A DNA stretch of 64,000 nucleotides. Origin: Christensenella timonensis. GTDB lineage: Bacteria; Bacillota; Clostridia; Christensenellales; Christensenellaceae. Under the pieces are notes generated by a model. The model was given only the letters and a program-made list of their open reading frames with translations, had not been told where the DNA came from and did not search any database. Shown in pieces: positions 6,847 through 27,665 of the stretch (within the stretch, counting starts at the first letter, position 1; the number at the start of each line of letters is the position of its first letter). The DNA lies in the NCBI RefSeq assembly GCF_900087015.1, contig NZ_FLKP01000002.1, positions 124,001-188,000 on the forward strand. Direction: 5' to 3'. A program made the position numbers and the translations under genes.

Positions 6847-9309
6847 TTACAGGACGTGCTCCGTCCTTGCAATAATGTCTTCCTGCACCTGCGGGCACAA
6901 GCTTACAAAATAACTGCTGAAGCCAGCCACGCGCACAATCAGGTCGCGGTAGTTATCGGGTGCGTCCTGCGCCTGATGTAACGTCGCCGCCGAGACGATA
7001 TTAAACTGGATCTGCATCCCTTTCTTTTCAAACAACGTACGGATGAGCGCCACCCAATGATCGAGACCTTCCTCCGTCTGTACCGAGGTAGGCGTAATTT
7101 TCAGGTTAAACAGCTGTCCGCCGGGCATCAGCACGCTGGGAAGCTTGGAATACGAGTTCATCAGCGCCGTCGGACCTTTGCGGTCTGTCGAGCGGTACGC
7201 CGACGTACCTTCCGTGACCGGTTCGCCCGCTTTGCGGCCGTCTGCCGTCGCGCCCACGAATTCGCCTGCGCCCACGTGCGCCGATACGGTCGCGGTGGAC
7301 GGGATAAAGAACCCGCCGATCGGCCCCTTCCCATAACGCGTATTTTTGTATTGCATCTCGTGCTCCGAGAAATACCGCATGATGTCAGCTGCGATCCGAT
7401 CCGGTTCGTCGTTGTCATTGCCGAACTTGCTGTCCGCATTGAGCAGCATCTGGCGGATCACTTCACCAGACGGCTGCGTCGCCTGGTCCTCGAAGTTCGT
7501 ATCCAGCGCGTGCTTTAATTGCTGCGCGCTAAGAAGCTTCTCATCGAACACCATCTTCTTCACGGTTGCGAGCGCGTTGGCAGCGGAGATCATACCTACG
7601 TTCTGTCCGCCCGTGAAATCGTATTTTGCGCCGCCTTCCTTGATCTCCTTGCCGCGCTCGATGCAGCCCTCGATCATGGACGACAGGAACGGATTGGGCG
7701 TCATCTCTCCCCATGAAAGGTCGACTACGTTGCCCGCCGTTACATGGTGCTTCAGGAAATACCGGAGCTGCGCATAAAATGCCTCCATTACTTCATCGAA
7801 CGATTCAAAGGTTGTGAGATCCTTGTCCTGCGCGCAGCAGGTGATACCGCTGCGCGGATCCTTGCCGCCGTTTAATGCCAGTTCCACCCACTTGGCAAAA
7901 TTCGGGAAACCCGCGCCGAAGCGCCCGCCGATCTTGCCTTGCGGCGCCTGCTCCACACACCCCACCATACCGTAGTCCACGGCGTCCTCATACGAATATC
8001 CGATGTTGAGCATGGATGGAATGATGACCTCGTCGTTAAAGAATGCAGGCAGGCTTCCCACCTTGCGTACCACCTTCACCGCCTCGCGGATAAAGCGGTC
8101 AGGCGTACCATTGAATACGCGTACCGTCAGGGAAGGCTGGATCATGGACAGTTTTTTTGTACATGCGAGCGCGAGGTAGGAAAGCTCGTTCACCGCGTCT
8201 TGTCCGTTAAATGTCTGTCCGCCGATGGTCAGGTTCTGGAACAGCGGATTGCCCACGAAAGCGACTGTGTCCGCCCACGGGCGCAGCTTGGAAAATTCGG
8301 TTACCTTCAGCCACATGCAGCACATAATTTCATAAGCCTTTTCGACCGTCAGCCGCCCTTCCCCGATATCCTTCTTGAAAAACGGATACAAGTATTGGTC
8401 TACACGTCCAAAAGAGATCGAATGGCCGTTGCTTTCCACCTGCACCGGAATATTCACAAAAAACATGGACTGCACCGCTTCGTAGAAGGTGGTCGCCGGT
8501 TCCGCCGGAACCGTCCCACAAATACGCGCCATCTCATTAAGCTCCGCCTTGCGCTGTACGTCTTTTTCATTTGCTGCCATTTCCTTCAGCTTGGCGGCAT
8601 ACCGCGCCGCAAACTTAAGCACCGCTTTATTCGCAATGATGACCGCTTCAAGGAACGGCCGCTTTTGCAGGTCGTCCGGATCCGAAATGTCGAGGGAATC
8701 CAATTTCTGCTGCGCCTGCGCGATCACGCCCTCAAGCCCTATGCGAATGACCTTCTGGTAGTCGGGAATGGTATGGCCGTCCCCACTCACCATGACCCAG
8801 TCCTCGTCGATTGCCTTGACTTCCTTACAAGCTACCCTGGTATCTTCCGGCAGCAGGGATTTCACCCTGTCTTCATGCGTCTTTCCCTTCCAGTAGGGAA
8901 TTACGTCGCGCAGCAATATCTCCTTGGCTTCTTCCGTGATCTGGTAGGCGTCGCCCGGGCGTTTGTCAAAGAAATACGGATCCCCGTTCAGCTCGTTTTC
9001 CCCCCAGTCCACCGCAAACTCCGGAAATACGGGCGCGCCGCGGGGTACGGACGCCATGTTTCCCACCAACAGATCGCCGTCCTTGACATAGATCGTCATT
9101 TCGGACAGGATCTTATCGAGCGCCTTTGCGCGCCTGACAACCATCGGCTGTCCTTCCGTCTCCTGGTAGGACTTTGTAATCAGTACAGCCCGCTCCGGAC
9201 ATACCGATAAATCGCGCGAGAAAAATATCTCCCTTAAGTCTTTTACGCGTGGCGTGAGCTTAATCTTGTCATCGAGCAGCGCAAGGCACTGCTGCATTAC
9301 ATCCTTCAT
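6847..9309 (-). CDS. Glycyl radical enzyme 1 (PFL-like dehydratase/lyase class)
   Basis: The 820-residue protein belongs to the pyruvate formate-lyase superfamily. The C-terminal radical loop reads RVAGF with the radical Gly at 796. The active-site finger loop reads GCVEQ, with the thiyl Cys451 and catalytic-base Glu453 found in C-O/C-N eliminating members (glycerol, diol, choline type) and absent from true PFL, which has Cys-Cys. Most characterised eliminases have Pro after that Glu; here it is Gln, so a known substrate cannot be assigned. It is made behind AAAGGAG and paired with the activase downstream. A LacI-type operator lies about 100 bases upstream. Given the sugar genes around it, a polyol or sugar derivative is a likely substrate, by inference. 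Confidence 0.9.
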   Translation of the reverse strand: MKDVMQQCLALLDDKIKLTPRVKDLREIFFSRDLSVCPERAVLITKSYQETEGQPMVVRRAKALDKILSEMTIYVKDGDLLVGNMASVPRGAPVFPEFAVDWGENELNGDPYFFDKRPGDAYQITEEAKEILLRDVIPYWKGKTHEDRVKSLLPEDTRVACKEVKAIDEDWVMVSGDGHTIPDYQKVIRIGLEGVIAQAQQKLDSLDISDPDDLQKRPFLEAVIIANKAVLKFAARYAAKLKEMAANEKDVQRKAELNEMARICGTVPAEPATTFYEAVQSMFFVNIPVQVESNGHSISFGRVDQYLYPFFKKDIGEGRLTVEKAYEIMCCMWLKVTEFSKLRPWADTVAFVGNPLFQNLTIGGQTFNGQDAVNELSYLALACTKKLSMIQPSLTVRVFNGTPDRFIREAVKVVRKVGSLPAFFNDEVIIPSMLNIGYSYEDAVDYGMVGCVEQAPQGKIGGRFGAGFPNFAKWVELALNGGKDPRSGITCCAQDKDLTTFESFDEVMEAFYAQLRYFLKHHVTAGNVVDLSWGEMTPNPFLSSMIEGCIERGKEIKEGGAKYDFTGGQNVGMISAANALATVKKMVFDEKLLSAQQLKHALDTNFEDQATQPSGEVIRQMLLNADSKFGNDNDEPDRIAADIMRYFSEHEMQYKNTRYGKGPIGGFFIPSTATVSAHVGAGEFVGATADGRKAGEPVTEGTSAYRSTDRKGPTALMNSYSKLPSVLMPGGQLFNLKITPTSVQTEEGLDHWVALIRTLFEKKGMQIQFNIVSAATLHQAQDAPDNYRDLIVRVAGFSSYFVSLCPQVQEDIIARTEHVL

Positions 9310-12095: not shown

Positions 12096-12719
12096 ATGGA
12101 TATCCAATCGGTTTCTTCGCCGTCTTTTGGAAAGTACGGCAGGGTCTTAAGCGCCTGCGCCTATCCGCAACTTATGCGCGCGATGGAAGAAACGCCCCTT
12201 CCTGACGGCGTCGTCTATGAACCAAGCGCTTTCGGGCCGGATGCATCCACAGAAGGGCAGCAGCTTCAAAATTCCGTTTTTGGCGGGATGCCGATACAGA
12301 TCGGTTACTGTAACGGCAAAAACGATACGCTGAACGCCGTGGAATACCACCGGAGCAGTGAAATCAATATCGCGTGCAGCGACCTTGTCCTCCTGCTGGG
12401 TATGGAGCAGGACCTCAACCGGCCAGACAATACCTATGATACCGCCCGCATGGAAGCGTTTCTCGTTCCGCAGGGAACGGCGGTAGAGCTTTATGCCACT
12501 ACGCTGCATTACGCCCCCTGCGCGCAGGGCGGGCAAAAATTCCGCTGTATCGTCGTGCTCCCCGCAGGCACCAACCTGCCGCTCGAAAGCCCGGCGGGCA
12601 CGCAGGGAGAAGATCGACTCTTATTCGCGCAAAACAAATGGCTGATCGCCCATCCGCAAAGCGGTCTTGACAAAGACGGCGCTTTTTTGGGGCTAATTGG
12701 CCGCAACCTTACTATATAA
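12096..12719 (+). CDS. DUF4867 family protein
   Basis: The 207-residue protein matches, from memory, the DUF4867 family, often found next to L-fucose-isomerase-like proteins. It is a soluble protein with no signal peptide or membrane segment. Conserved-looking phrases are PIQIGYCNG, VEYHRSSEINIA and VLLLGMEQDL, with His at the YH and LHYAPC positions that could bind metal in a cupin-like fold. It starts at ATG 12096 behind GGGAG and is first in a two-gene operon with a sigma-A promoter and operator. Its reaction is not known to me; a role in handling the sugar substrate of the isomerase-like partner is inferred. Confidence 0.75.
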   Translation: MDIQSVSSPSFGKYGRVLSACAYPQLMRAMEETPLPDGVVYEPSAFGPDASTEGQQLQNSVFGGMPIQIGYCNGKNDTLNAVEYHRSSEINIACSDLVLLLGMEQDLNRPDNTYDTARMEAFLVPQGTAVELYATTLHYAPCAQGGQKFRCIVVLPAGTNLPLESPAGTQGEDRLLFAQNKWLIAHPQSGLDKDGAFLGLIGRNLTI

Positions 12720-12739
12720 AAAAAATGGAGGATCCCAAA

Positions 12740-14340: not shown

Positions 14341-15420
14341 TTAGTCGATTACCATGATGCCCTTAATCTTCTTTTCCTTGGATTCCCGCATGAATTTGAT
14401 GCCTTCTTCGATATCGTCAAGCGCAAAACGGTGCGTAATCAGCGAATCCAGCTTGACACGGCCGTTTGCAAGCGCGGTGAATACGTTGTCCCAAACGAGC
14501 GGAGCCAGCCACGAGAACTTGATGTTCCTGTCGTTATAGATCGCGTCCAACGCCGGAACCTGCAACACTGCGTCCGCCTTGGACGGCAGTCCGAAGTATA
14601 CGATCGTGGAGCACGGGGCCGTCACTTCCAGCGCCTGCTGCCATGCGCTCATTGCGCCCGTGGGCAGGATCGCCCTGTCCGCAAGGCGGCCGTTGTTGAT
14701 ATCGCGGATACTTTGCGCCAAATCCGCCGTGTAATATTTGGAATCCTGATCAAGCGTATTGAACGCATGCAGCGCGCCCATCTCAAGCGCTTTTTCGAGG
14801 TTATAATCCACTACGTCGACCGCGATCACCTGCCCTGCCCCGTTCATGTGCGCAAGCTGTACGTCGATGAGGCCGATTGTGCCGCAGCCGAATACGATAG
14901 CCGTATCGCCCTGCTGGATATCGAGCTTTTTGATGCCGTAGCTTGCGCAGGCCATGGGCTCTGCAAGCGCGCCCATCTCAAGCGACATGCCTTCCGGGAT
15001 CTTATAAACGTTGGTCGCCGCAGCCTTCACATATTCTGCAAACGCGCCATTCTCGCCTACGCCATAAACCTTGACGTTGTCGCACTCGTTGTAATGCCCG
15101 TGCAGGCACGGTTTGCAGGCAAAGCACGGAGCCACCGGGTTCACAACGACCTCGTCGCCTTTTTTCAGGCCCATGGAAGCGCCGATTTCGCCCGGGTCTT
15201 CCACGATCCCAGCCGTCTCGTGCCCCAGGATCAGCGGCCCTTTGCCGTCCGGCGTGGTTAGCGGACTGCCGCCGTAATAATACTCGAGGTCTGAGCCGCA
15301 GATTCCCACCGCTTTTACCTTTACAAGGACTTCATTGGCCGCGATTTCAGGGATGTCCACTTCCTCCATTTGCATCTTAAAGGGTTCATAAAATACACTG
15401 GCTTTCATTTTACTCATCAT
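14341..15420 (-). CDS. Zinc-dependent alcohol/polyol dehydrogenase (MDR family)
   Basis: The 359-residue NAD(P)-dependent medium-chain dehydrogenase resembles sorbitol and threonine dehydrogenases. It carries catalytic zinc motifs GICGSD and GHETAG, the structural-zinc lobe with four Cys (PCFACKPCLHGHYNEC), and a Rossmann motif in FGCGTIGL. It would oxidise a polyol or reduce a carbonyl, for example an aldehyde or ketone made by GRE 2. I chose ATG 15420 because AAAGGTG precedes it; a GTG two codons upstream is possible. It is the last gene of the GRE 2 set and ends 10 bases before a strong terminator. Confidence 0.9.
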   Translation of the reverse strand: MMSKMKASVFYEPFKMQMEEVDIPEIAANEVLVKVKAVGICGSDLEYYYGGSPLTTPDGKGPLILGHETAGIVEDPGEIGASMGLKKGDEVVVNPVAPCFACKPCLHGHYNECDNVKVYGVGENGAFAEYVKAAATNVYKIPEGMSLEMGALAEPMACASYGIKKLDIQQGDTAIVFGCGTIGLIDVQLAHMNGAGQVIAVDVVDYNLEKALEMGALHAFNTLDQDSKYYTADLAQSIRDINNGRLADRAILPTGAMSAWQQALEVTAPCSTIVYFGLPSKADAVLQVPALDAIYNDRNIKFSWLAPLVWDNVFTALANGRVKLDSLITHRFALDDIEEGIKFMRESKEKKIKGIMVID

Positions 15421-15463
15421 TTTCACCTTTCCTTTGCTTTGATTTACTTTTTTTGAATATTTT

Positions 15464-16117
15464 TTAACCTATAATCGTTCTGAATTTTGCAATCTGGTCT
15501 TTGCGGCTGCCCGCACTGAATATTGCGGAACCTACGATAAACCAATCTGCGCCAAGGGCTTTGAGCTTATGTGCACGTTCCAAATCCACCGAGCCGTCCG
15601 CCCCTATTGGGATATCCCTTCTGGTTGAAACGAAAAATTCTTTTAACTCCCCGACCTTTTGGTAAACGCTTTCCTCAAAGACCTGGTTGCCAAAGCCGGG
15701 TTCGACGCCCATCATGATGATATAATCCGCATAATCTGTAAGGTGCTTCAAATTTTCCCATGGGTCTGCCGGATTAAGCGCTATCCCGGCCATCATTCCC
15801 CTTGTTCGTATTTCCTTTAACAGGCGGATCGGATTTGCCGTTGTCCCCAACTGGAATACGAGCGCGTCCGCCCCGGCCTGGTCAAACATTTCCACGTAGT
15901 TTTCCGGGTTGTGGAGCTCTAAATGCACTTCCACCTTCGTATCGGAAAAACTTTTGATATCGCTCACTGTTTTTGGGCCAAATGCGATATTTTTGACATA
16001 TACCCCATCCATGATATCCACATGGACAAAATCGGCGCCGGCCTCTTCGGCCTCTTCTATACTTTCCCCCAAAAACATTGCATTACAACCTAAAATCGAT
16101 GCAGACAGTATTGACAA
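15464..16117 (-). CDS. Ribulose-phosphate 3-epimerase family protein
   Basis: The 217-residue TIM-barrel protein matches Rpe and allulose-6-phosphate epimerases: N-terminal SILSASILGCNAMFLG, the metal/acid segment VHVDIMDGVYV, VHLEL, MMGVEPGF and GADGSVD with the second acid Asp. The last motif differs from the usual VDGGI, which with the catabolic context suggests a paralogue acting on an unusual ketose phosphate rather than the pentose-phosphate Rpe. The start is TTG at 16117 with GGAGAGGA 6-7 bases upstream. It lies 43 bases from the dehydrogenase and 29 bases from the SorC-type regulator. Confidence 0.88.
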   Translation of the reverse strand: MSILSASILGCNAMFLGESIEEAEEAGADFVHVDIMDGVYVKNIAFGPKTVSDIKSFSDTKVEVHLELHNPENYVEMFDQAGADALVFQLGTTANPIRLLKEIRTRGMMAGIALNPADPWENLKHLTDYADYIIMMGVEPGFGNQVFEESVYQKVGELKEFFVSTRRDIPIGADGSVDLERAHKLKALGADWFIVGSAIFSAGSRKDQIAKFRTIIG

Positions 16118-16146: not shown

Positions 16147-17118
16147 CTATCGCCGTCCCGTCACCTCCCGTTCAACAAGGATCGCCGTTTCTTCATCCGT
16201 GACCAGCGTATCGATATATCCGCCGCGCAAGGCGGCCGCTATCGGGGCGACCTTATGTTTTCCGCCTGCAATCGCAATGACGTTCCCGATCTTCCTTAAA
16301 TCATTAAGCTCGATACCGATGACCCTGTCGTTATATTCGATTCCTGCCCTCCTGCCGTCCATATCGATATGCCTGCCGCAGATATGGCATTTGATGCCGC
16401 TGTTCCAAAGCTGCTCCGATTCCTTCTTGGTGATGTAATTGGAATGTACCATAGAGCTTACATCCGCAAAGTTGCTCCCAATACCGATCACCGCGATATC
16501 AAGCTTCCTGGCCATTTCAAAATGGCGCAGGATATCGTCCTCCTGCATCAACAGGTCGTGTACCTGCCTTGTCTTCACCGTCAGCGGGGAATGCAGCATT
16601 TTGGCGCTGCCTCCGACCTTGTCCGCAAAGCTTAAGATCAGCTGTACGCCGTACATATACGAATCATCCCAGGCAGTCCCGCCCATAAGCTGCACAACGT
16701 CAATATTGGCGCGGACGACCGGTGTAAAGCGGAATATCGTTTGGTATACGCTCAGGCCCCACGATACTCCGACCTTCATATCGTCCTTTAATTGCTTTTC
16801 CAAATACCGCGCCGCCGTCACGCCGATGTTGGAAAGATTGATATTTGGGTCGTGGTTCGACGGCACAACGATCATTTGCTTGAGGGCAAACATGTCCTTG
16901 AGCTTTTCACTGATCTCAATCGATTTCAGGGAAGCGTCGTTGATCCTGATATCCACGATGTCCATTTCCCGGGACATGCGCAGCAGGCGTGACACATTAG
17001 ACCTCGATACTTCCAGTACGTCGGCGATCGCCTGCTGGGACATATTGTCGTAATAATACATCTTGGCGATGCGTACCATCAGCCTGCGCTGCGCAGTCAA
17101 TTTCTGTGCTTTTACCAT
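16147..17118 (-). CDS. SorC/DeoR-type sugar-binding transcriptional regulator
   Basis: The 323-residue product has a short N-terminal helix-turn-helix (YYDNMSQQAIADVLEVSRSN) and a large sugar-phosphate-binding domain of the SorC family with VGVSWGLSVYQTI, VVQLMGGTAW and VIGIGSNF. Such proteins are activators or repressors that sense phosphorylated sugars. It lies inside the catabolic operon between the kinase and the epimerase, so it probably senses the kinase product. No clear ribosome site is seen before ATG 17118. Confidence 0.9.
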   Translation of the reverse strand: MVKAQKLTAQRRLMVRIAKMYYYDNMSQQAIADVLEVSRSNVSRLLRMSREMDIVDIRINDASLKSIEISEKLKDMFALKQMIVVPSNHDPNINLSNIGVTAARYLEKQLKDDMKVGVSWGLSVYQTIFRFTPVVRANIDVVQLMGGTAWDDSYMYGVQLILSFADKVGGSAKMLHSPLTVKTRQVHDLLMQEDDILRHFEMARKLDIAVIGIGSNFADVSSMVHSNYITKKESEQLWNSGIKCHICGRHIDMDGRRAGIEYNDRVIGIELNDLRKIGNVIAIAGGKHKVAPIAAALRGGYIDTLVTDEETAILVEREVTGRR

Positions 17119-17203: not shown

Positions 17204-18751
17204 TCAGGGGCAACCGTGCATTGTCAAGCTATGCATCCATCCCTTCGCTAATTCATAGAACTCTGCATATTTATTGTAGTAAAACAGGTATTCCTCATGC
17301 CTCGTTTGATCCGGCTTGATCTTTCTTTCGATCGTTACCATGCTGTTTGCCGCCGTTTCGATCTTATCGTATACGCCGGCCGCAACCGCGCCGAGGATCG
17401 CCGATCCGAGACACGGGCCTTCCGTCACCTTCGGAATATAGATCGGCAAATTGCATACGTCCGCGTGCATCTGCGTCCATAGTTCGCTTTTGACTGCGCC
17501 GCCGGAAATATAGATTCCCTCCGGCTGCATGCCGCCTTTGCGGAACACGTCCATAATCAGTTCCGTCCCATAGCAGATAGATTCCAGAATCGCCCGGTAC
17601 AGGTGATACGGCGTGTGCCTTAAGGACAGGCCATAAAACATACCGCGGACATCCGGGTCTGCATGCGGCGTGCGGTTGCCCTGGAAGTAATCGAGGGCAA
17701 GCAGGCCCTCCGCACCGGCCGGCAGTTTGGACGCTCCTTCGTTTAAGAGATCGTAAACGCTTTTTCCCTGCTCCTTCGCCGCCCTTGCAATATCGCCGCA
17801 GTAACCTGATTGAAACCAGTTTACGATGGCGCCGGTGGATGTTTGCCCGCCTTCGATGAGCTGCAGCCCGGGAACTACTGCGTCCGGATACGAGCCCCAC
17901 ATGCCCTGCGCGTGCATTTCCTTATCCGTAAGTCCGAGGTGCAGGTGCGAGGTGCCGGTGATCATCGCAATACTGCCGGGAGATACGACGTTTAATCCCA
18001 GCATGCCGACAAACGCATCCGCACCGCCTTCGCCGACGGGGATTCCTTCTGCAAGCCCCAGCTCCTGCGCCGCCTGTTTTTGCAGGGCGCCGACCTTGAC
18101 GCCCAGATCAAGGACAGCATCCGGAAACTTCCCCAGTACGTCCGCAAGCCCGATCTCTTCGTAAAGGGAAACCGGCCAGCCGCCTTCCGCCCTGTTGTAG
18201 TACCAGCGCGGGGATGTTGTGTCGATGCTTGCCACAAGCTCGCCGGTGAGCTTATACATCAGCCAGTCCACGCATTCAAAAACGTGCTCCGCCTTTGCAT
18301 ACAGCTCGTTTTCATTTTCCTTCAGCCACAGCGCCTTTGCCGGCATGGATTCCGCCGATACATTGCCATAGCCGTTATATTTGAGCGCGTCGTTTCCTGT
18401 TGCCGTTATTCTCTTTGCCTGCGCCGACGCGCGCACATCCATCCACATAATCGCAGGGCCCAGGATGTTCATGTGCCCATCTGCCATGAGCACGGTGCAG
18501 CATGTCGTATCGACGCTCATGCCACGAATACTGTCCGGCGTTATACCGCTTTTTTCCATGACCGCCCTGGTAGCAGTACAAATCGCGCTCCACCATTCGT
18601 CCGTCTTTTGCTCGGCCCAACCGGATTTTGGCGTATAGAGCGGATAAGAAGCATCCGCAAAAGCAACCGGCTGTCCCTGCAAGTCAAAGAGACCTACTTT
18701 GACGCTGCTTGTTCCCATATCGATTCCGAGTACACATTCCGTCCTGCTCAT
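17204..18751 (-). CDS. FGGY-family carbohydrate kinase (xylulokinase-like)
   Basis: The 515-residue kinase starts MSRTECVLGIDMGTSSVKVG, with the phosphate-binding loop of the actin-like ATPase fold, and continues with SGWAEQKTDEWW, TCCTVLMADG and ISGGAVKSELW (adenosine site). It phosphorylates a ketose or polyol so that the epimerase and central metabolism can use it. ATG 18751 is chosen because GGGGA lies 7-8 bases before it; an earlier in-frame ATG at 18769 overlaps the activase stop. The protein has normal family length. Substrate not set; xylulose- or deoxyketose-like is an inference from neighbours. Confidence 0.9.
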   Translation of the reverse strand: MSRTECVLGIDMGTSSVKVGLFDLQGQPVAFADASYPLYTPKSGWAEQKTDEWWSAICTATRAVMEKSGITPDSIRGMSVDTTCCTVLMADGHMNILGPAIMWMDVRASAQAKRITATGNDALKYNGYGNVSAESMPAKALWLKENENELYAKAEHVFECVDWLMYKLTGELVASIDTTSPRWYYNRAEGGWPVSLYEEIGLADVLGKFPDAVLDLGVKVGALQKQAAQELGLAEGIPVGEGGADAFVGMLGLNVVSPGSIAMITGTSHLHLGLTDKEMHAQGMWGSYPDAVVPGLQLIEGGQTSTGAIVNWFQSGYCGDIARAAKEQGKSVYDLLNEGASKLPAGAEGLLALDYFQGNRTPHADPDVRGMFYGLSLRHTPYHLYRAILESICYGTELIMDVFRKGGMQPEGIYISGGAVKSELWTQMHADVCNLPIYIPKVTEGPCLGSAILGAVAAGVYDKIETAANSMVTIERKIKPDQTRHEEYLFYYNKYAEFYELAKGWMHSLTMHGCP

Positions 18752-18768
18752 CTGTCTTCCCCGGCGCA

Positions 18769-19704
18769 TCAGCCGCCAATGCAGGCGTTGATGCCCGCCT
18801 TAACCATGCGGTCTTTCATCTTTTCCACGATCTTTTTATCCATATCCTTGAATTCGCCCAATGCATAGTCATAATCAAGCGAATCATATTTATATTTTCC
18901 AAGCTGGTGGAAGGGCAGCAAGTCTACGTCCTTGATATCGAGCTCTTTCGCCCACTTAATCAAATTGCCGATATGCTCGTCGTTGTCGTTGAGCGTCGGT
19001 ATAATCGGGCAGCGCATTTTCACATATTTCCCATGCTCGCGCAGCTTCCTTAAGTTTTCCTTGATCACGGAAAGCGGTACGTTCGAGATGGTCTTGAACT
19101 GCTCCTCATTTGTGAATTTTACGTCCATCAGGATCTCGTCCACATACTGCGCGATTTGCCACAACGTTTCAAACGATACGGCGCCTGCCGTTTCCATAGC
19201 GACATCGATATACCGCCTGCGGGCAGCTTGTGCCAGTTCGCTTGCAAAGACCGGCTGCATACACGGTTCCCCGCCGGAGATCGTCATGCCGCCGCCGGAA
19301 TTTTTATAATACGCGCTGTCCTTTTCCACTTCCTTGATTACTTCCGCTACGCTCATTTCCTTGCCATACAGCTCGCGCGCGGAATTAGGGCACATCTCTA
19401 CGCATTTCCCGCATAATGTACATTTTTCCTTGTCGATGGCGATGGTTCCGTCTTCTTTTTGCGTGATCGCATCCTGCGGACACAATGTAACGCAGCAGTA
19501 ACCGCATTTTGTGCAAAGGTTATTGTGAATGACCAGCTGCGGCGTGCAAACCTGGGATTCGGGGTTGCAACACCAGGGGCACCAAAGGTTGCAACCCTTT
19601 AAAAATACATTCGTCCGAATCCCTTCACCATCATGGACATGATAATGTTCCACGTTAAAAACGTTCCCTTTTGTTTCCTGTTCTACCTTATCGCTCCAAA
19701 ACAT
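18769..19704 (-). CDS. Glycyl radical enzyme activase 2 (radical SAM)
   Basis: The 311-residue activase partners GRE 2 encoded directly upstream. The radical SAM cluster motif is GCNLWCPWC (Cys38, Cys42, Cys45), followed by Cys46. Two ferredoxin-type clusters follow (CTKCGYCCVTLC and CTLCGKCVEMC), then SGGEP as the SAM-binding motif. AGAGGT lies 7 bases before ATG 19704. It is clearly paralogous to activase 1 but divergent, matching a different GRE. Confidence 0.93.
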   Translation of the reverse strand: MFWSDKVEQETKGNVFNVEHYHVHDGEGIRTNVFLKGCNLWCPWCCNPESQVCTPQLVIHNNLCTKCGYCCVTLCPQDAITQKEDGTIAIDKEKCTLCGKCVEMCPNSARELYGKEMSVAEVIKEVEKDSAYYKNSGGGMTISGGEPCMQPVFASELAQAARRRYIDVAMETAGAVSFETLWQIAQYVDEILMDVKFTNEEQFKTISNVPLSVIKENLRKLREHGKYVKMRCPIIPTLNDNDEHIGNLIKWAKELDIKDVDLLPFHQLGKYKYDSLDYDYALGEFKDMDKKIVEKMKDRMVKAGINACIGG

Positions 19705-19854: not shown

Positions 19855-22329
19855 TCAGACCGCGTGCTCCGTACGTTCGATGATGTCGTCCTGCAACGCC
19901 TTGTCAAGCGGCGTAAACAATGCGCTGTATCCTGCCACACGCACCATCAGGTCTTTGTATTCGGACGGATTGTCCTGCGCCGCCTTGAGCGTATCCGCCG
20001 ATACGCAGTTGATCTGTACATGCATTCCCTTATAGTCGCTGAAATATGTGCGTACAACGTCTACCAGCTTCTTGAGGTTCGGTCCGGGCTCTAAGGACGC
20101 CGGCATAACCTTTACGTTCAGAAGCTGTCCGCCGGATACGAGAACTGTCGGCAGCTTGCCTACCGATTTTAAGGACGACGTGATCCCGTTGGTATCCGTG
20201 CCGTGCATCGGCGAAGAAGTATCCGCAAGCGCGTCGCCCGCTTTTCTTCCGTCCGGCGTCGCGCCCACAAAGGAGCCGAACGGTACGTTGGAAGAAACCG
20301 AGCTGGTGGACGGCTGCCATGTGCCGCCGATGGGGCCGCGGCCATATCTTGTCGTGTGGTATTTCGCCGTCTCCTCGCAGATGAAGCGGAAATAATCCAC
20401 CATGATATCGTCTACATAATCGTCGTCGTTCCCGTATTTAGGGGCATCCAGCATCATTTTCTGGATTTCCGCGCCCGTGGGCTTTGTCGTCATATCTTCG
20501 TAGTTTGTTTCCAGCGCGTGCATAAGCTGCTCTGCCGTAATCTTCTTGTCGTCGAAAACGACCTTCTTGATCGCCGCGAGTGAGTTTCCGACATTGGCAA
20601 CGCCTACATAAAGCGGCCCGCAGTAATCGTAGATCGCGCCGCCGGCTTTCATGACCTTGCCGCGCTCGATGCAATCGTGCACCAGCGAAGAAACGTACGG
20701 ATCGGCGATCCCCAGCTCCGTGCACTGGTCGATGATGTTATCCGTCATGATCTGCTGCTTGAAATAATATCTTGCCTGCGTCTTGAACGCTTCGTACAGT
20801 TCTTCATAATTTTTGAAATCAGACAGCGTTCCCGTGCCTTCGCACATGCAGATGTCCGTATTCGGGTCTTTCCCGTTGTAAAGCGAAAGTTCGAGGATTT
20901 TGCCGAGGTTGATGAAGCCTGCGCCGTTTGGGCGGCCTGTCTGCTTTCCTTCGACGATCGCTTCCACGCAGCCTACGATGGAATAGTTGACGGCGTCCTC
21001 CCACGGGATTCCCCTGTTAACAAGCGCCGGAATATAAACTTCATCGCTGTACATGGCCGGCTGTCCGCCGCCGATCCGAACCACGTCGAAAGACGCGTAC
21101 AGCAGCCTCTCATTGATGCGGTTGTGGTAACGCAGGGAGATGGACGGCGTATTGAGCGCGATCGCCGCCTGTGCATTGAGCACGAGGAACGATACTTCGT
21201 TGGCGCTGTCCTTTCCGTTGATATCCTGTCCGCCCACCGTAAAGTTCTGGAACAGCTGGTATCCGCTGAAAGCCTTTGTATTGTCCCAGCAAGTGATTTT
21301 CTGGAGCTGGAACATCTTCAGGAATACGCATTCGATGATTTCGAGCGCGTCGTCGTATTCGATATTGCCCGCTTCCACGTCCTTTTTGTAGATATCGATC
21401 ATCGTCTGGTCGTAACGGCCGAACGAGATGGAGTGGCCGTTGTTCTCGATCTGCATCGTCAAATTGATGAACCACAGCGACTGCGCCGCCTCGTGGAAAT
21501 CCCTCGCCGGGTTTTCCGGTACGTTCTGGCATACTTCCGCGATCTTCATCAGTTCTTTTTTACGCTGCGCGTCCTTTTCCGTTTTTGCCATTTCCACCGC
21601 CAGCTGTGCATAACGGTGAGCAAAAGCTATGACCGCTTCGCAGGTGATGACGACGGATTCCAAAAACGGTTTTTGTTCGATCGCATCCGGCTCGGAAAGG
21701 TCGAGCTGTGCAAGGCGCTTTTGCGCACGGGCGATCACGTCCTTAAGCCCCTTATCGGCAACGCTTTTGAGGTCTACCGTCAGGTGTCCGTCGCCGCCGA
21801 TCATCAGCCAGTAGGAATCCGTAACGCCGATCTTCTTGCCGATCTCCGTTTCCTTTGGCAGCATCGCCTTGCACCGCGATTCATGGTCGTTCCCATGCCA
21901 GAAGCTGTGGATTTCCCGCAGTACCTTTTCATCCTCTTCGTCGATCAGGTAACGGTCGCCCGGACGCTGCTCCGGCCGTACCGGATTGCCGTCCAGTTCT
22001 TCGATGACCCAGTCCATCCCGAATTCAGGAAAGATCGGCGCGCACCTCAGTTTAACGCCGAGGCTGCCTACGATAAGCTCCCCCGGAAGTATGCTGATCC
22101 GCATGTTTTCGAGAATATGCCTGAAGGCCTTTGCACGCTTTAAGACAGTCGGTTCAGATTGGTATGTCTGGTATGCCTGCGTCAAAAGCTTTGCCCTATC
22201 CGAGCATATCTGCGGCGTTGCATCGATCAGCAGGTCGCGCAGGTCGTTTATCCTTTTGCTGCGCACAACAGGACGTCCCAAAAATTCATGTTTGGTGTCT
22301 GTCTGTCCTTGCTCCTCATAATATTTCAT
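19855..22329 (-). CDS. Glycyl radical enzyme 2 (PFL-like dehydratase/lyase class)
   Basis: The 824-residue GRE has radical loop RVAGY with Gly800 and finger loop GCVEA, with thiyl Cys454 and Glu456 as in eliminase-type GREs. Ala follows the Glu in place of the common Pro. The region after it reads EGKQTGRPNGAGF, different from the choline, diol and glycerol enzymes I know. It resembles GRE 1 throughout (SNGHSISFGR / NNGHSISFGR, GGQ.FN and GRGPIGG) but is far from identical. Strong AGGAGG precedes ATG 22329, and an operator of the CACGTG family is 58 bases upstream. It heads the activase-kinase-regulator-epimerase-dehydrogenase run and is probably the key step of that pathway. Confidence 0.9.
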   Translation of the reverse strand: MKYYEEQGQTDTKHEFLGRPVVRSKRINDLRDLLIDATPQICSDRAKLLTQAYQTYQSEPTVLKRAKAFRHILENMRISILPGELIVGSLGVKLRCAPIFPEFGMDWVIEELDGNPVRPEQRPGDRYLIDEEDEKVLREIHSFWHGNDHESRCKAMLPKETEIGKKIGVTDSYWLMIGGDGHLTVDLKSVADKGLKDVIARAQKRLAQLDLSEPDAIEQKPFLESVVITCEAVIAFAHRYAQLAVEMAKTEKDAQRKKELMKIAEVCQNVPENPARDFHEAAQSLWFINLTMQIENNGHSISFGRYDQTMIDIYKKDVEAGNIEYDDALEIIECVFLKMFQLQKITCWDNTKAFSGYQLFQNFTVGGQDINGKDSANEVSFLVLNAQAAIALNTPSISLRYHNRINERLLYASFDVVRIGGGQPAMYSDEVYIPALVNRGIPWEDAVNYSIVGCVEAIVEGKQTGRPNGAGFINLGKILELSLYNGKDPNTDICMCEGTGTLSDFKNYEELYEAFKTQARYYFKQQIMTDNIIDQCTELGIADPYVSSLVHDCIERGKVMKAGGAIYDYCGPLYVGVANVGNSLAAIKKVVFDDKKITAEQLMHALETNYEDMTTKPTGAEIQKMMLDAPKYGNDDDYVDDIMVDYFRFICEETAKYHTTRYGRGPIGGTWQPSTSSVSSNVPFGSFVGATPDGRKAGDALADTSSPMHGTDTNGITSSLKSVGKLPTVLVSGGQLLNVKVMPASLEPGPNLKKLVDVVRTYFSDYKGMHVQINCVSADTLKAAQDNPSEYKDLMVRVAGYSALFTPLDKALQDDIIERTEHAV

Positions 22330-22548: not shown

Positions 22549-23715
22549 TCAATCTCCCATCGACCATTTTGGCAGGTTTACAGGCATCGTCGACGGCCGC
22601 TTGCACGTGCTCTTCATCTCGTAATACGTTCCGGATTCCGCAGAATCATAGAAACCGTGCATCATTTCCAGCACATGGTATGCCATTTCCCCATTCGCAC
22701 GGAAATCCCCGCCCTTGCGGATCGCGCGGGCCATGTCGGAAAGGCCGAGGCCGCGGCTGTTTTCCATGTAATCAAAACAGGGCGGGATGACCGACCACGG
22801 CGTCGCCTCCTCGAGCCTCGGGAGCGGCACAGGCGTATCTACCCAGTCGGAAGCGTCTTTCCTGCGCAGCTTGGTTTCGCCATGGAAAATGTCCGGCCCG
22901 GCAAGCGGATCGGGATCCGTCTGGCTCATCGTGCCTTCCGTACCATAGATCTCGAAGCGCGGCAGGTTGTTGTCCCACATATCAAAGCTCATGATCATGG
23001 TGGCGATCGCACCGTTTTCAAACTCAATGGTTCCGCTCACATGCGTAGGTACCTCCACGTCGATAACCTTGCCTGCCAGCGGCTGGCTGGTGATCATTCT
23101 CTGTTTATACGTCGTTGCCGTAGCGCCGCTGATACGTTTTGCCGGCCCCAAAAGGGCAACCAGCGCCGTCAGGTAATACGGCCCCATATCAAAAAGCGGG
23201 CCTGCGCCTTCCTTGTAATAAAATTCAGGGCTCGGATGCCATGTTTCATGGCCGAATGTCGTCATGAACGCCGTTGCGGCAATCGGTTTACCGATCCAGC
23301 CGTCGTCTAAAAGCTTGCTCATGGTCTGCAGGCGTCCGCCTAAAAACGTATCCGGCGCACAACCTACGAGCAGCCCCCTTTTCTTCGCTGTCTCCAGGAT
23401 TTCCTTGCCTTGCTCCCGCGTAATCGCCAGGGGCTTTTCGCTGTATACGTGCTTTCCTGCCATAAGAGCCTGCATATCCACATCGTAATGCGCAGCCGGG
23501 ATCGTCAAATTGAGGATGACCTCTACCTGCGGGTCTGCCATGATCTCTTCTACGCTCATCGCCTTGCATCCATACTGCTCGCCGCGCTCTTTTGCCCGGT
23601 CGATCATCAGGTCTGCACATGCATATACCTCGATATTTTCAAATTTGGCAATGTTCTCGAAATAAATGTCCGAAATATTGCCGCAACCTACGACTCCTAC
23701 TTTTACTGTTTCCAT
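22549..23715 (-). CDS. Gfo/Idh/MocA family oxidoreductase
   Basis: The 388-residue protein has an N-terminal NAD(P)-binding fold (METVKVGVVGCGNISDIYF) and the EKPLA signature (YSEKPLAIT), followed by the C-terminal alpha/beta domain with GPYYLTALV. Family members oxidise or reduce sugars, inositols and sugar acids. ATG 23715 sits behind AAGGAG; upstream codons in the frame lack homology. It lies between the sugar ABC transporter and GRE 2 on the same strand, and probably performs the first redox step on the imported compound. Substrate unknown. Confidence 0.9.
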   Translation of the reverse strand: METVKVGVVGCGNISDIYFENIAKFENIEVYACADLMIDRAKERGEQYGCKAMSVEEIMADPQVEVILNLTIPAAHYDVDMQALMAGKHVYSEKPLAITREQGKEILETAKKRGLLVGCAPDTFLGGRLQTMSKLLDDGWIGKPIAATAFMTTFGHETWHPSPEFYYKEGAGPLFDMGPYYLTALVALLGPAKRISGATATTYKQRMITSQPLAGKVIDVEVPTHVSGTIEFENGAIATMIMSFDMWDNNLPRFEIYGTEGTMSQTDPDPLAGPDIFHGETKLRRKDASDWVDTPVPLPRLEEATPWSVIPPCFDYMENSRGLGLSDMARAIRKGGDFRANGEMAYHVLEMMHGFYDSAESGTYYEMKSTCKRPSTMPVNLPKWSMGD

Positions 23716-23770
23716 TTCATTTCTCCTTTTTATTTGCTGGTTATTGAAAACTTTTCTATTCATTCCGGTA

Positions 23771-23791
23771 TTTTTGTGTACAAAAACACAA
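23771..23791. repeat. Overlapping inverted repeats before the oxidoreductase gene
   Basis: TTTTTGT-GT-ACAAAAA (23771-23786) overlaps TTGTGT-ACAAAA-ACACAA (23774-23791), about 60 bases upstream of the Gfo/Idh/MocA start. A regulator site is possible, for example for the SorC-type protein, but no second copy was identified. Confidence 0.35.
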
Positions 23792-23894
23792 GCTTGCTCC
23801 ACTGCGGCTGCTTCCTTTTACCGGTTATTCTTTTTTTCATATTGGATGTAAGAGAGTTATGCCGGACTTCAAAGTCCCTGATCAATTATTGTAC

Positions 23895-24040: not shown

Positions 24041-25075
24041 TCAGTTGAAGTATTCGTCCATGTTATCCTTTGTCACGAGTTCAAAGGGAATCCATGTCTC
24101 TTTTTCAACCTGCTCGCCGTTGATCAGTGCAAGGGCAACATCAACGGACTGGTAGCCCTGGCCATAGCCATCCTGGAATACGTCCGCAGCCAGCCTGCCG
24201 TCAGCCAGATATTCTTTTGCATCATCTACAAGGTCGATACCCGTTACCTGGATCTTGCCTGTCATGCCGGCGTTCTCGATTGCGTTGCAAGCGCCGATGG
24301 CCATCTCGTCATTCTGGGCAAATACGCCTGCCAATTCTTCCCCATAGGTATTGAGCCAGTTTTCCATGATCGTCATCGCTTCGTCACGTGACCAGTTTCC
24401 GATATCCTCAACAATGATCTCGATGTCCGGATATTTTTCTTCGAGCAGCTTCTTCGCCGCGTCGCCGCGGATCACTTCGGAAGACTGGCCTGCGATACCG
24501 CGGATCATACCGATTTTGCCTTTGCCGCCGATCGCGTCTGCAAGGGCCGTTACCGCGAGCTCGGCAGACTGGTTATCGTCGGAACCAACGAATGCATCAG
24601 GCTGGAGGTCTCCCTCGAACGTTGTGCAAACGCCGATAACCGGGATGCCGGCAGCATTGCACTTTTCAATGATCGGTACACAAGCCTGCGCGTCGACCGG
24701 CGTTACAATGATCGCATCCATCTGTTGAGCGATCATGGATTCGCACTGTGAAATCTGCGTGGACGGGTCGCCGTCCGCATCGTTTACCGTCAGCGAAATT
24801 CCCAGTTCGTCACAACGGGTCTGAATGCCTTCAGCAATGCTAAGCATGAACTCCGTCGTCTGTGTCTGAACAAGATATCCAAACGACATCTCGCTCGGGT
24901 CTTTGCCTGCCGCCGCGCTTGCGGATTCCACCGCCTGCGAAGCTTCCGCGCTTGCGGATTCCGCCGGCGCCGAAGACTCTGCCGGTGCCGAAGATTCTGC
25001 CGGCGCCTGCGAGCAACCTGCAAACGCTGTTACCACAAGCACGAGTGCCAGTACAACTACTAATACTTTTTTCAT
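24041..25075 (-). CDS. Sugar ABC transporter substrate-binding lipoprotein 2
   Basis: The 344-residue receptor starts MKKVLVVVLALVLVV and has lipobox AFAGC (Cys about residue 20). A low-complexity linker of repeated PAESSA units follows, then a type-1 sugar-binding fold (MSFGYLVQTQTTEFML, AQQMDAIIVTPVDAQAC, GKIGMIRGIAGQSSEV). It captures the sugar outside the membrane for the permease and ATPase encoded upstream. AGGAGG precedes the ATG. A hairpin after the gene may keep its mRNA level high, as is usual for receptor genes. Confidence 0.93.
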   Translation of the reverse strand: MKKVLVVVLALVLVVTAFAGCSQAPAESSAPAESSAPAESASAEASQAVESASAAAGKDPSEMSFGYLVQTQTTEFMLSIAEGIQTRCDELGISLTVNDADGDPSTQISQCESMIAQQMDAIIVTPVDAQACVPIIEKCNAAGIPVIGVCTTFEGDLQPDAFVGSDDNQSAELAVTALADAIGGKGKIGMIRGIAGQSSEVIRGDAAKKLLEEKYPDIEIIVEDIGNWSRDEAMTIMENWLNTYGEELAGVFAQNDEMAIGACNAIENAGMTGKIQVTGIDLVDDAKEYLADGRLAADVFQDGYGQGYQSVDVALALINGEQVEKETWIPFELVTKDNMDEYFN

Positions 25076-25168: not shown

Positions 25169-26152
25169 TTATTTTTTATCAGTGCGGTCAAGCAGAACTG
25201 CAGCAATAATGATCGCGCCGCTGATTACCTGCTGCCAATAAGAGGATACGCCCAAAAGGTCAAGGCCGTTGTTTAAGACGCCGATGATAAACGCGCCGAC
25301 GATTGTTCCCCACATTTTGCCAACGCCGCCCGAAAGCGCCGTACCGCCGATCACAACAGCGGAGATCGCGTCCAGTTCATATCCTTGTCCGATGTTTGGC
25401 TGGCCGACAACGATACGACAGGATTGCAGCACGCCTGCGATACCGCAGATCAGGCCGGAAATGATATAAGTTGTCATTTTGATGTTGGAAGCAGGGATAC
25501 CGGAAGCGCGCGCCGCTTCCTCGTTGCCGCCAACCGCATACACGTAACGGCCAAACTTGGTCTTTGAAAGGACAAACATGGCGATAACCGCTACGATAAT
25601 CATTACAATAACGAGATATGGAATTCCGCCCAGCGTGCCGCTGCCGAACGCTTTAAAGGTCGGCGCCATATTCGATACCGGCCGGCCGTTTGATAAGAGC
25701 AGTGCCGTGCCGCGCGCGATCGTAAGCGTTCCTAGCGTCACGATAAACGGGGCAACCTTTGCTTTTGCCACGATAACGCCATTGAACACGCCGAAAGCAA
25801 GCCCTACCAGAATCCCCATAATGACCGCGACCAAAGCCGGGTACATCATGACGCCATTATCGTCCACCTGCGCAAACATGGCGAACACCACGCCGGACAC
25901 CGCCAGTACCGAGCCAACCGAAAGATCGATACCGCCTGTCAGGATAACAAACGTTACGCCGATCGCCAGCAACGCATTGATGGACGTCTGCGTCAGGATC
26001 GTAATGAGATTGTTGGGCGTGAAAAATTTATTTGTCGCGATCGTAAGGGCGATAATCAAAATAATAAGCGCCAATACAATACCATACTTTCTGAAAATTT
26101 CTCCCGCCGTCATCCCCCTGCCTGATTCCAGCGAATTACTTTTACTAACCAT
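25169..26152 (-). CDS. Sugar ABC transporter permease 2 (RbsC family)
   Basis: The 327-residue permease has about eight or more hydrophobic segments and the family phrases TSINALLAIGVTFVILTGGI, DLSVGSVLAVSG and AISAVVIGGTALSGGVG. It is the CUT2-type channel subunit between the ATPase (17 bases upstream) and the lipoprotein. GGGGGAGG precedes ATG 26152. Confidence 0.94.
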   Translation of the reverse strand: MVSKSNSLESGRGMTAGEIFRKYGIVLALIILIIALTIATNKFFTPNNLITILTQTSINALLAIGVTFVILTGGIDLSVGSVLAVSGVVFAMFAQVDDNGVMMYPALVAVIMGILVGLAFGVFNGVIVAKAKVAPFIVTLGTLTIARGTALLLSNGRPVSNMAPTFKAFGSGTLGGIPYLVIVMIIVAVIAMFVLSKTKFGRYVYAVGGNEEAARASGIPASNIKMTTYIISGLICGIAGVLQSCRIVVGQPNIGQGYELDAISAVVIGGTALSGGVGKMWGTIVGAFIIGVLNNGLDLLGVSSYWQQVISGAIIIAAVLLDRTDKK

Positions 26153-26171: not shown

Positions 26172-27665
26172 TTATTGAGCTAATACATACTCCATAATTT
26201 TTTCCTGTTTTATTTCTTCTCTTTGGTTGATCTCGCCTCTGATTTTACCTTCATGCATGACGATCACACGATCGGAAAGCCCGATTAGCTCCGGCATTTC
26301 CGACGAGACGACGATCACCGCTTTTCCCTGCTGGGCAAGACCATTAATAAGCTGGTATATTTCTGCCTTCGCGCCGATATCGATACCCCTTGTCGGTTCG
26401 TCCATGATGAGGATATCCGATTCGTCCAGCAGGATCTTTCCCAAAACAACCTTTTGCTGGTTCCCGCCGGAGAGGTTTCCCACAGCCTGGTTCCTCGTCG
26501 GCGTTTTAATGGTAAGGTCTTCGATTTGCTTATCCGCCAGTTCATTCTCCTTTTTTTGATTGATGATAGGCGACTTAAAATACTTATTGACGTTGGAAAG
26601 CGTCAGGTTGTGCTTGACAGAAAGCGGAAGCACGAGGCCCACGCCCTTGCGGTCTTCGTTTACAAGTCCGATCCCGCTTGCGATCGCGTCTTTTGGGGTA
26701 CGGATGGTGGTTTCCTTCCCCTTTATGAATACCTTGCCGCTATCGAGCTTATCGAGTCCATAAATACAGCGCATCGTTTCCGTCCTGCCCGCACCCATCA
26801 GTCCCGCAAAGCCGACCACTTCACCGCGCCGCACAGAAAACGAAACGTTTTCAAACACACCCTTTCTCGTCAGTCCTTCCACGCGCAGCATTTCCTCACC
26901 CGCCTGCGTATCACGTTTTGGAAATACGTCCGTCAGCTTACGGCCGACCATAGCTACGACGATCTGGTCGATATCCACGTCGCACGCATTGAACGTATCT
27001 ACGAGGCATCCGTCGCGGAACACGGTCACGCGGTCGCTGATTTTAAGGATCTCATCCATCTTATGCGATATGTAGATGATCGCGACTCCCTTTGCCTTAA
27101 GCTCATTGATCACACGGAACAGGTTTTCCACTTCCCGATCCGTAATTGCCGAAGTCGGTTCATCCATGACGATCACGCTCGCATCGTAAGAAACCGCCTT
27201 CGCGATTTCCACCATCTGCTGTTCAGACACCATCAGGCTGTTCATCGTACGCTTGGGGTTTAGGCCGACGCCCACATTTTTGAGCCATTCCGCTGCTTTT
27301 ACATTCATTTCCTTTTGCTGCAGGACGCCGTGTCTTACGATTTCCCTGCCGAGAAACATATTTTCGGCAATGGTCAGGTAGGGGACGTAAGAGAGCTCCT
27401 GATGAATGATCGCGATCCCCTTGGAAAGCGTTAGCCTTTCATCGCGTTTTTCAAGCACCTCGCCCTTATAAACGACGTCGCCGACGTCCTGTTTATAGGT
27501 TCCCGTCAGGATCTTCATCAGTGTGGATTTCCCTGCGCCATTCTCCCCCATCAGCGCGTGCACTTCGCCTTCCTCCAATTCAAAGGAAACACGATCAAGC
27601 GCTTTGACGCCCGGAAAAGTTTTGCAGATATTTTTCATCTCCAGTAAATGCCCTTGACTGCTCAC
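26172..27665 (-). CDS. Sugar ABC transporter ATPase 2 (RbsA/MglA family)
   Basis: The 497-residue ATPase has two ABC domains: domain 1 with GENGAGKST, VSEQQMVEIAKAVS, MDEPTSAI and ISHK; domain 2 with the degenerate Walker A GLMGAGRTE, LSGGNQQK and MDEPTRGID. These are the standard residues, in contrast to the orphan paralogue at 4399-5874. The start is GTG 27665 with AAGGAG 8 bases before. A promoter with an embedded operator lies about 120 bases upstream. First gene of the ATPase-permease-lipoprotein operon. Confidence 0.94.
   Translation of the reverse strand: MSSQGHLLEMKNICKTFPGVKALDRVSFELEEGEVHALMGENGAGKSTLMKILTGTYKQDVGDVVYKGEVLEKRDERLTLSKGIAIIHQELSYVPYLTIAENMFLGREIVRHGVLQQKEMNVKAAEWLKNVGVGLNPKRTMNSLMVSEQQMVEIAKAVSYDASVIVMDEPTSAITDREVENLFRVINELKAKGVAIIYISHKMDEILKISDRVTVFRDGCLVDTFNACDVDIDQIVVAMVGRKLTDVFPKRDTQAGEEMLRVEGLTRKGVFENVSFSVRRGEVVGFAGLMGAGRTETMRCIYGLDKLDSGKVFIKGKETTIRTPKDAIASGIGLVNEDRKGVGLVLPLSVKHNLTLSNVNKYFKSPIINQKKENELADKQIEDLTIKTPTRNQAVGNLSGGNQQKVVLGKILLDESDILIMDEPTRGIDIGAKAEIYQLINGLAQQGKAVIVVSSEMPELIGLSDRVIVMHEGKIRGEINQREEIKQEKIMEYVLAQ

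Follow-up and report, generated by a model that had tools for sequence, protein, structure and literature searches.

A glycyl radical eliminase clade beside YbiW in Christensenella timonensis and its possible role in a breakdown route through 1-deoxy-D-xylulose-5-phosphate

The GRE2 gene and its neighbours

The DNA analysed here, called the window throughout, is a stretch of 64,000 nucleotides from Christensenella timonensis (G000:C2:124001-188000). On its reverse strand, an open reading frame that starts with ATG (19855..22329, (-)) encodes GRE2, a glycyl radical eliminase of 824 amino acids. Pfam and NCBIfam both place GRE2 in the PFL2/glycerol-dehydratase family well over threshold, with Pfam matches to PFL-like (E 2e-201) and Gly_radical (E 2e-28) and a TIGR01774 score of 772 bits against a cut-off of 678; judged on its sequence, this family match is far beyond chance. 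Residues were compared in an alignment that took in glycerol dehydratase, E. coli YbiW and PflD, CutC, HypD and diol dehydratase, together with other glycyl radical enzymes (GREs) of the same genome. Cys454, Glu456 and the radical-bearing Gly800 are intact, and the Gly800 codon (19930..19932, (-)) lies in an RVAGYS motif and aligns with Gly763 of glycerol dehydratase. An earlier note on this DNA had called GRE2 a radical eliminase on the strength of Cys454 and Glu456, and this was borne out by the alignment, the Pfam and NCBIfam matches, Gly800 and the activase gene.

The finger loop extends from Cys454 to Phe472 (20914..20970, (-)) and reads GCVEAIVEGKQTGRPNGAGF. It contains Glu456, followed by Ala457, and Arg466, which is invariant across 17 aligned relatives. 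Three glycerol-dehydratase positions are replaced in GRE2 (Asp447 by Gly469, Tyr339 by Phe360 and Tyr640 by Ser676) and two are kept, His164 as His182 and Ser282 as Ser300. The loop skeleton GK...R..G..F is common to GRE2 and YbiW. The claim that the loop differs from the glycerol, diol, choline and PFL types stands, but it is not unusual among all known types, being of the YbiW kind in length and skeleton. An AlphaFold model of GRE2 built from five sequences reached a pLDDT of 52, too poor for a fold search.

GRE2 belongs to a set of ten consecutive genes of the same orientation, spaced -1 to 238 bp apart, in the order RbsABC-type ABC transporter, Gfo/Idh/MocA oxidoreductase, GRE2, activase, FGGY kinase, SorC regulator, Rpe-like epimerase and zinc dehydrogenase. 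The transporter comprises an RbsA-type ATPase (26172..27665, (-)) and an RbsC-type permease (25169..26152, (-)), both recognised by sequence and conserved in the loci L016, L036 and L069, and a sugar-binding lipoprotein (24041..25075, (-); PF13407). The Gfo/Idh/MocA enzyme (22549..23802, (-); PF01408) possibly reduces an imported precursor; it weakly matches the glycoside-oxidising DgpA, its nearest hit (73 bits), and the 1,5-anhydrofructose reductase 2glx (58 bits). The activase adjoining GRE2 (18769..19704, (-)) is a radical SAM protein with a CX3CX2C motif and ferredoxin-like clusters, and passes the TIGR02494 cut-off (313 vs 174 bits). By its profile matches the FGGY kinase (17204..18769, (-)), which recurs with GREs, is ribulokinase/pentulose-kinase-like; it scores well under the AI-2 kinase cut-off (226 vs 528 bits) and is proposed to be a 1-deoxypentulose 5-kinase. 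Beyond a SorC/DeoR-type sugar-binding regulator (16147..17118, (-); PF04198) lies the Rpe-like 3-epimerase (15464..16117, (-)), which is proposed to convert 1-deoxyribulose-5-phosphate to 1-deoxy-D-xylulose-5-phosphate (DXP). Its TIGR01163 score of 198 bits is under the cut-off of 213, and it scores 143 bits with D-allulose-6-phosphate 3-epimerase. The run closes with a zinc-dependent medium-chain dehydrogenase (14341..15426, (-); PF08240/PF00107) that is conserved in L017 and L036. All the neighbours listed in the earlier note (Gfo/Idh/MocA, FGGY kinase, epimerase, zinc dehydrogenase and sugar ABC transporter) are thereby accounted for.

Neither an FSA nor a PTS gene was found in the GRE2 cluster by Pfam and a gene-neighbourhood survey; the genome has one FSA-family gene, away from the cluster. 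Genes for deoxyribose-phosphate aldolase or deoxyribokinase were likewise not seen in the clusters. By the zinc-dehydrogenase end of the operon, an opposite-strand sugar pair (12096-14221, (+)) encodes a DUF4867 protein and a fucose-isomerase-C-domain protein.

Placement of GRE2 beside YbiW

A maximum-likelihood family tree of 38 rows recovered a YbiW supergroup with support of 100/98. Within it, YbiW (100/99), GRE1 (100/100) and GRE2 (100/100) each have a clade of their own, the latter two being sister groups (95/91); glycerol and diol dehydratase, CutC, HypD and PflD fall outside. Equivalog scores of GRE2 for CutC, HypD, sulfopropanediol dehydratase, HPAD and indoleacetate decarboxylase were 325-586 bits against cut-offs of 1000-1150, and the sulfonate and choline cut-offs of NCBIfam were missed by more than 400 bits. 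The sulfonate and arylacetate GREs are set apart by these scores only and are not knowingly in the tree. Clustering with a characterised GRE family, which the earlier note had named as the finding that would overturn it, was not observed: GRE2 has its own fully supported clade and all NCBIfam equivalogs are far under cut-off. On sequence and phylogeny, GRE2 represents a distinct GRE eliminase clade beside YbiW, with YbiW as its nearest characterised relative.

Several identities were considered and rejected. Scores, clade and residues speak against membership in the glycerol/propanediol dehydratase, CutC or HypD families, the NCBIfam score against sulfopropanediol dehydratase, and the separate clade and a cluster with neither FSA nor PTS against plain YbiW orthology.

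The genome is rich in such enzymes, with 16 GREs in 2.65 Mb, most of which match no named family; six of the 16 lie on a 337-kb contig (C1) and two inside the window. GRE1 (6847..9309, (-)), placed by the tree in the sister clade, founds another uncharacterised clade with the loop GKIGGRFGAGF, and in L016 a 70% relative of it is the gene directly before the GRE2 relative. A divergent GRE of 861 amino acids (L037:5514-8099, (+); G000:C2 about 931.5-934.1 kb) adjoins a ROK kinase in a paralogous cluster; its Gly_radical match is weak (36.5 bits) and its GCVE and RVTGFS motifs are intact.

Partner genes of GRE2 relatives

Besides a paralog in the window's own genome (77%), core relatives of GRE2 occur in one other species of the genus (98%) and in single MAGs of Christensenellaceae (79%) and Family XIII (74%). 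Among 391 genomes of the class and 349 from the family to which L016 belongs, almost no further close relatives were found, and the subfamily is rare in the sampled collections. L036, L037 and L017 each contain both the FGGY kinase and the Rpe-like epimerase, L016 keeps the latter plus a kinase fragment at the locus edge, and the zinc dehydrogenase is kept in three genomes. In L016 an AKR gene lies near the GREs with no Gfo/Idh/MocA gene, which would fit a reductase step on an imported sugar. The other contig of the window's own genome carries a GRE from a different clade together with a separate activase (L049:5714-12877, (-); G000:C1 about 40.7-47.9 kb); the kinase and epimerase beside this GRE share 71% and 39% identity with their counterparts in the window. 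Since two different radical enzymes share the kinase-epimerase pair, this suggests that the pair acts on a common product, after the radical step. GRE2-clade members outside the core (L039, L040) are accompanied by a XylB-like kinase, an AraD-like 4-epimerase and a UlaE-like L-ribulose-5-phosphate 3-epimerase, which in L039 passes the cut-off of TIGR00542. Relatives of the window kinase also occur elsewhere: in L103 (6361-10676, (-)) and L104 (62-64%) they lie with an Rpe-like epimerase, an FBA-type aldolase and a TIM-like isomerase, with no GRE nearby, which we read as another route using this kinase type, and a 52% relative sits in a transketolase/DAK cluster.

The second recurring partner is an acetoin-dehydrogenase-like complex, with E1a, E1b, E2 and E3 in one operon in L016, L040, L066, L098 and L099. 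In L016 the operon goes on past the epimerase without a break to the genes for E1a, E1b, E2 and a lipoyl-E3. Elsewhere in the window's own genome, a paralog cluster (L037/L066) of GRE, activase, kinase, RbsD, SorC and Rpe is followed by an E1-E2-E3 set, with one opposite-strand gene between; this set lies outside the window and was out of sight of the earlier note. In genome G001 (L040) the set lies upstream of the kinase and GRE, the GRE sharing an operon with the XylB-like kinase and not clearly with E1-E3. In G005 (L099), kinase, SorC and Rpe lead into E1-E2-E3 with no GRE, and G017, which has a core GRE2, carries the set on another contig (L098). The GRE2 cluster of the window is itself without E1-E3. 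E1b proteins of these loci are 79-86% identical across lineages, as against 55-61% to the two other E1b sets of the window's genome. The sampled family genera g2, g3 and g4 had neither a core GRE2 nor a close E1b, and a phylum-wide search for the partner E1b returned the window's genome only. The association amounts to about three independent cases, as G000 and G005 share ancestry; a span of ±10 kb covers <1% of such a genome.

More distant E1 relatives on rhizobial plasmids adjoin a DRL oxidoreductase whose score against the Brucella structure 3upl is 720 bits and which has the diagnostic residues, as taken from PMC3847144, of DXR-II, an enzyme of DXP metabolism; a Deinococcus DRL, used as contrast, is without them. 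The rhizobial DRL loci also carry SorC, joined in one of them by PTS genes of the glucitol type, and a Priestia stretch (L112) combines an FGGY kinase (47%), a DRL with the diagnostic residues, SorC genes, E1-E3 and a glucitol-type PTS. Between the E1 proteins next to DXR-II and those next to GRE2, identity is only about 57%. A search for DRL in the window's own genome gave no match, and control genomes were equally silent. DXR-II occurs with SorC and, depending on the locus, with a glucitol-type PTS and/or E1-E2-E3 in L109 and L110 (rhizobial plasmids), L112 and L113 (a Listeria plasmid), an arrangement that suggests catabolism of methylerythritol or deoxyxylulose by way of DXP. In rhizobia and Priestia, the occurrence of this E1 family next to DXR-II would indicate methylerythritol catabolism as a second pathway.

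A possible route through DXP and its alternatives

From the clade and the gene context we infer substrate, product and cleavage. Our proposal, quite possibly correct but tentative, is that GRE2 starts the breakdown of a C5 polyol or anhydropolyol, which would proceed through a 1-deoxypentulose and DXP to acetyl-CoA and glyceraldehyde-3-phosphate. The activase would put a radical on Gly800, which would make a thiyl radical on Cys454, and this in turn would abstract a hydrogen from C2 of a D-ribo/D-arabino pentitol or anhydropentitol, possibly after reduction of an imported precursor by the Gfo/Idh/MocA enzyme (or the AKR in L016). With Glu456 as acid/base, the C1-O bond, either hydroxyl or ring ether, would break to give a 1-deoxypentulose, as YbiW gives 1-deoxyfructose-6-phosphate. 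The FGGY kinase would phosphorylate this product, the Rpe-like enzyme would epimerise the resulting 1-deoxyribulose-5-phosphate to DXP, and DXP would be cleaved with CoA and NAD+ by the E1-E2-E3 complex whose genes lie next to the paralogous GRE cluster.

A C5 substrate and a 1-deoxypentulose product are favoured because the conserved partner genes encode putative pentulose-phosphate enzymes. Rpe converts D-ribulose-5-phosphate to D-xylulose-5-phosphate, and UlaE together with UlaF converts L-xylulose-5-phosphate to the same compound, and both partner sets (FGGY with Rpe; XylB-like with UlaE/AraD-like) lead to D-xylulose-5-phosphate stereochemistry. GRE eliminations leave a deoxy carbon, and if the product is a 1-deoxyketose, like that of YbiW, both sets would end at DXP. 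Since DXP has a CH3-CO-CHOH-R unit it would suit cleavage of the acetoin dehydrogenase type, and the gene context points to DXP rather than acetoin as the E1-E2-E3 substrate. This chemistry appears within reach of the E1 class because a mutant pyruvate dehydrogenase E1 makes DXP in E. coli (PMC3424233). As GRE2 belongs to the YbiW supergroup, analogy favours a cyclic anhydropentitol over an open pentitol as substrate. The earlier suggestion of a polyol or sugar-derived substrate, ranging over pentitols, hexitols, anhydro- and deoxy-sugars, holds as to a sugar pathway, and within that range the partner enzymes favour C5. The idea of an uncharacterised radical step in sugar breakdown likewise survives, with GRE2 in its own clade and among sugar-pathway genes; the loop, however, is not unique.

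We count in favour of the DXP route the catalytic residues, the activase and the place in the tree next to YbiW, the recurrence of kinase and epimerase both with GRE2 relatives and with the unrelated-clade GRE of L049, and the E1-E2-E3 genes adjoining GRE2-type and/or FGGY and Rpe genes in L016, L037/L066, L040 and L099. To these are added the cross-lineage E1b identity, the partners in L039/L040, the DXR-II neighbours and the mutant pyruvate dehydrogenase. Counted against it are the lack of E1-E3 in the window cluster and of a GRE in L099, the L040 GRE that is not clearly in an operon with E1-E3, the mere 57% or so between the DXR-II-linked and GRE2-linked E1 proteins, and the kinase relatives in FBA/TIM-like clusters without GRE and in the transketolase/DAK cluster.

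The supergroup membership and loop type would also agree with a hexitol substrate. GRE2 would then ring-open an unphosphorylated 1,5-anhydrohexitol (anhydroglucitol, anhydromannitol or an epimer) to a 1-deoxyhexulose, handled by FGGY kinase, an Rpe/AlsE-like epimerase and an FSA-like aldolase or E1-E3. The Gfo/Idh/MocA and AKR fold families both include anhydrofructose reductases, and the weak 2glx match, the AKR that stands instead in L016, the FSA-family gene of the genome and the score of the Rpe-like protein with D-allulose-6-phosphate 3-epimerase would fit such a scheme. We consider it unlikely, since the partner enzymes score best as pentulose-phosphate enzymes, the single FSA gene lies away from a cluster that has no PTS gene either, and related E1 proteins occur with DXR-II, which speaks for C5. 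Very unlikely is a reaction like that of glycerol or diol dehydratase, in which a pentitol would be dehydrated to a 2-deoxypentose for the zinc dehydrogenase to reduce or oxidise, FGGY and Rpe belonging to an ordinary pentitol route that runs in parallel. In its favour, glycerol dehydratase ranks with the top sequence matches at 624 bits, GRE2 retains the equivalents of His164 and Ser282, and the zinc dehydrogenase is conserved in three genomes; however, Asp447, Tyr339 and Tyr640 are replaced, GRE2 lies outside the glycerol/propanediol dehydratase clade, the clusters showed no deoxyribose-phosphate aldolase or deoxyribokinase, and the E1-E3 link would be left unexplained.

The gene context could itself mislead, if E1-E3 were an ordinary acetoin or pyruvate dehydrogenase, the kinase and epimerase served an unrelated pentose, and GRE2 acted on, for example, a glycoside or an amino- or sulfo-sugar. 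With 16 GREs and many transporters in the genome, chance could account for some of the neighbourhoods; DgpA is the closest match of the Gfo/Idh/MocA enzyme, and the window cluster has no E1-E3. The recurrence of kinase and epimerase with GREs of two clades, that of E1-E3 with kinase and/or GRE in separate lineages, and the wide gap to the sulfonate and choline cut-offs make this improbable.

Extending the DXP route, several GRE clades might turn stereoisomeric C5 polyols or anhydropolyols into 1-deoxypentuloses, which kinases and epimerases would bring together at DXP for cleavage to acetyl-CoA and glyceraldehyde-3-phosphate by a dedicated thiamine-dependent E1-E2-E3 complex, a generalisation we regard as possible but rather doubtful. 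If true, this radical DXP shunt would be a catabolic reversal of the bond-forming step of DXP synthase and a radical counterpart of phosphoketolase. DXP, the precursor of isoprenoids, thiamine and PLP, would also serve fermenting bacteria as an intermediate of catabolism, and acetyl-CoA could be formed from polyols without passing through pyruvate. No account of a GRE-to-DXP pathway was found in the PMC open subset of the literature. For many of the GREs that are abundant in the gut, no function is known (PMC11574389); the GRE2 clade now carries a specific prediction of carbon number, product and downstream steps.

Among known systems, the closest is YbiW, the E. coli GRE that ring-opens 1,5-anhydroglucitol-6-phosphate (structures 8yjn, 8id7). 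According to PMC12441222, which summarises Ma et al. 2024, YbiW and PflD open anhydrohexitol-6-phosphates to 1-deoxyfructose-6-phosphate. YbiW and GRE2 share about 39% identity, the supergroup and the catalytic triad. Their loops (GKWGYRCTGMSF / GCIETAVGGKWGYRCTGMSF in YbiW, as against that of GRE2 given above) are of equal length with Arg, Gly and Phe in register, and both have a RYGRGP(I/V)GG insertion that glycerol dehydratase is without. They differ in some loop residues and in their fully supported separate clades, and the GRE2 cluster, with ABC import, FGGY kinase and a pentulose-phosphate epimerase, is without PTS or FSA aldolase, unlike YbiW; in E. coli fsaA adjoins ybiW. PflD (8yjo), acting on 1,5-anhydromannitol-6-phosphate, resembles our proposal in ring-opening during sugar breakdown but lies outside the YbiW supergroup and has a glycerol-dehydratase-like HD loop. 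B12-independent glycerol dehydratase and GRE propanediol dehydratase (1r8w, 5i2a) share with GRE2 the fold family, Cys/Glu/Gly and the His164 and Ser282 equivalents, whereas GRE2 has Asp447, Tyr339 and Tyr640 replaced, a separate clade, a loop one residue longer and a cluster without microcompartment or aldehyde genes. Acetoin dehydrogenase (AcoABCL) cleaves a methyl ketone beside a hydroxyl and has the same E1a/E1b/E2 and lipoyl-E3 families as the partner complex, which differs in its linkage to FGGY, Rpe and GRE genes and in its proposed substrate, DXP. Finally, autoinducer-2 (Lsr) catabolism combines an FGGY kinase acting on a 1-deoxypentulose-like compound with a SorC regulator and an Rbs-type ABC transporter, and ends in acetyl-CoA and triose phosphate; in contrast to the pathway proposed for GRE2, it is without a GRE and releases its acetyl unit by the thiolase-like LsrF, not by E1-E3.
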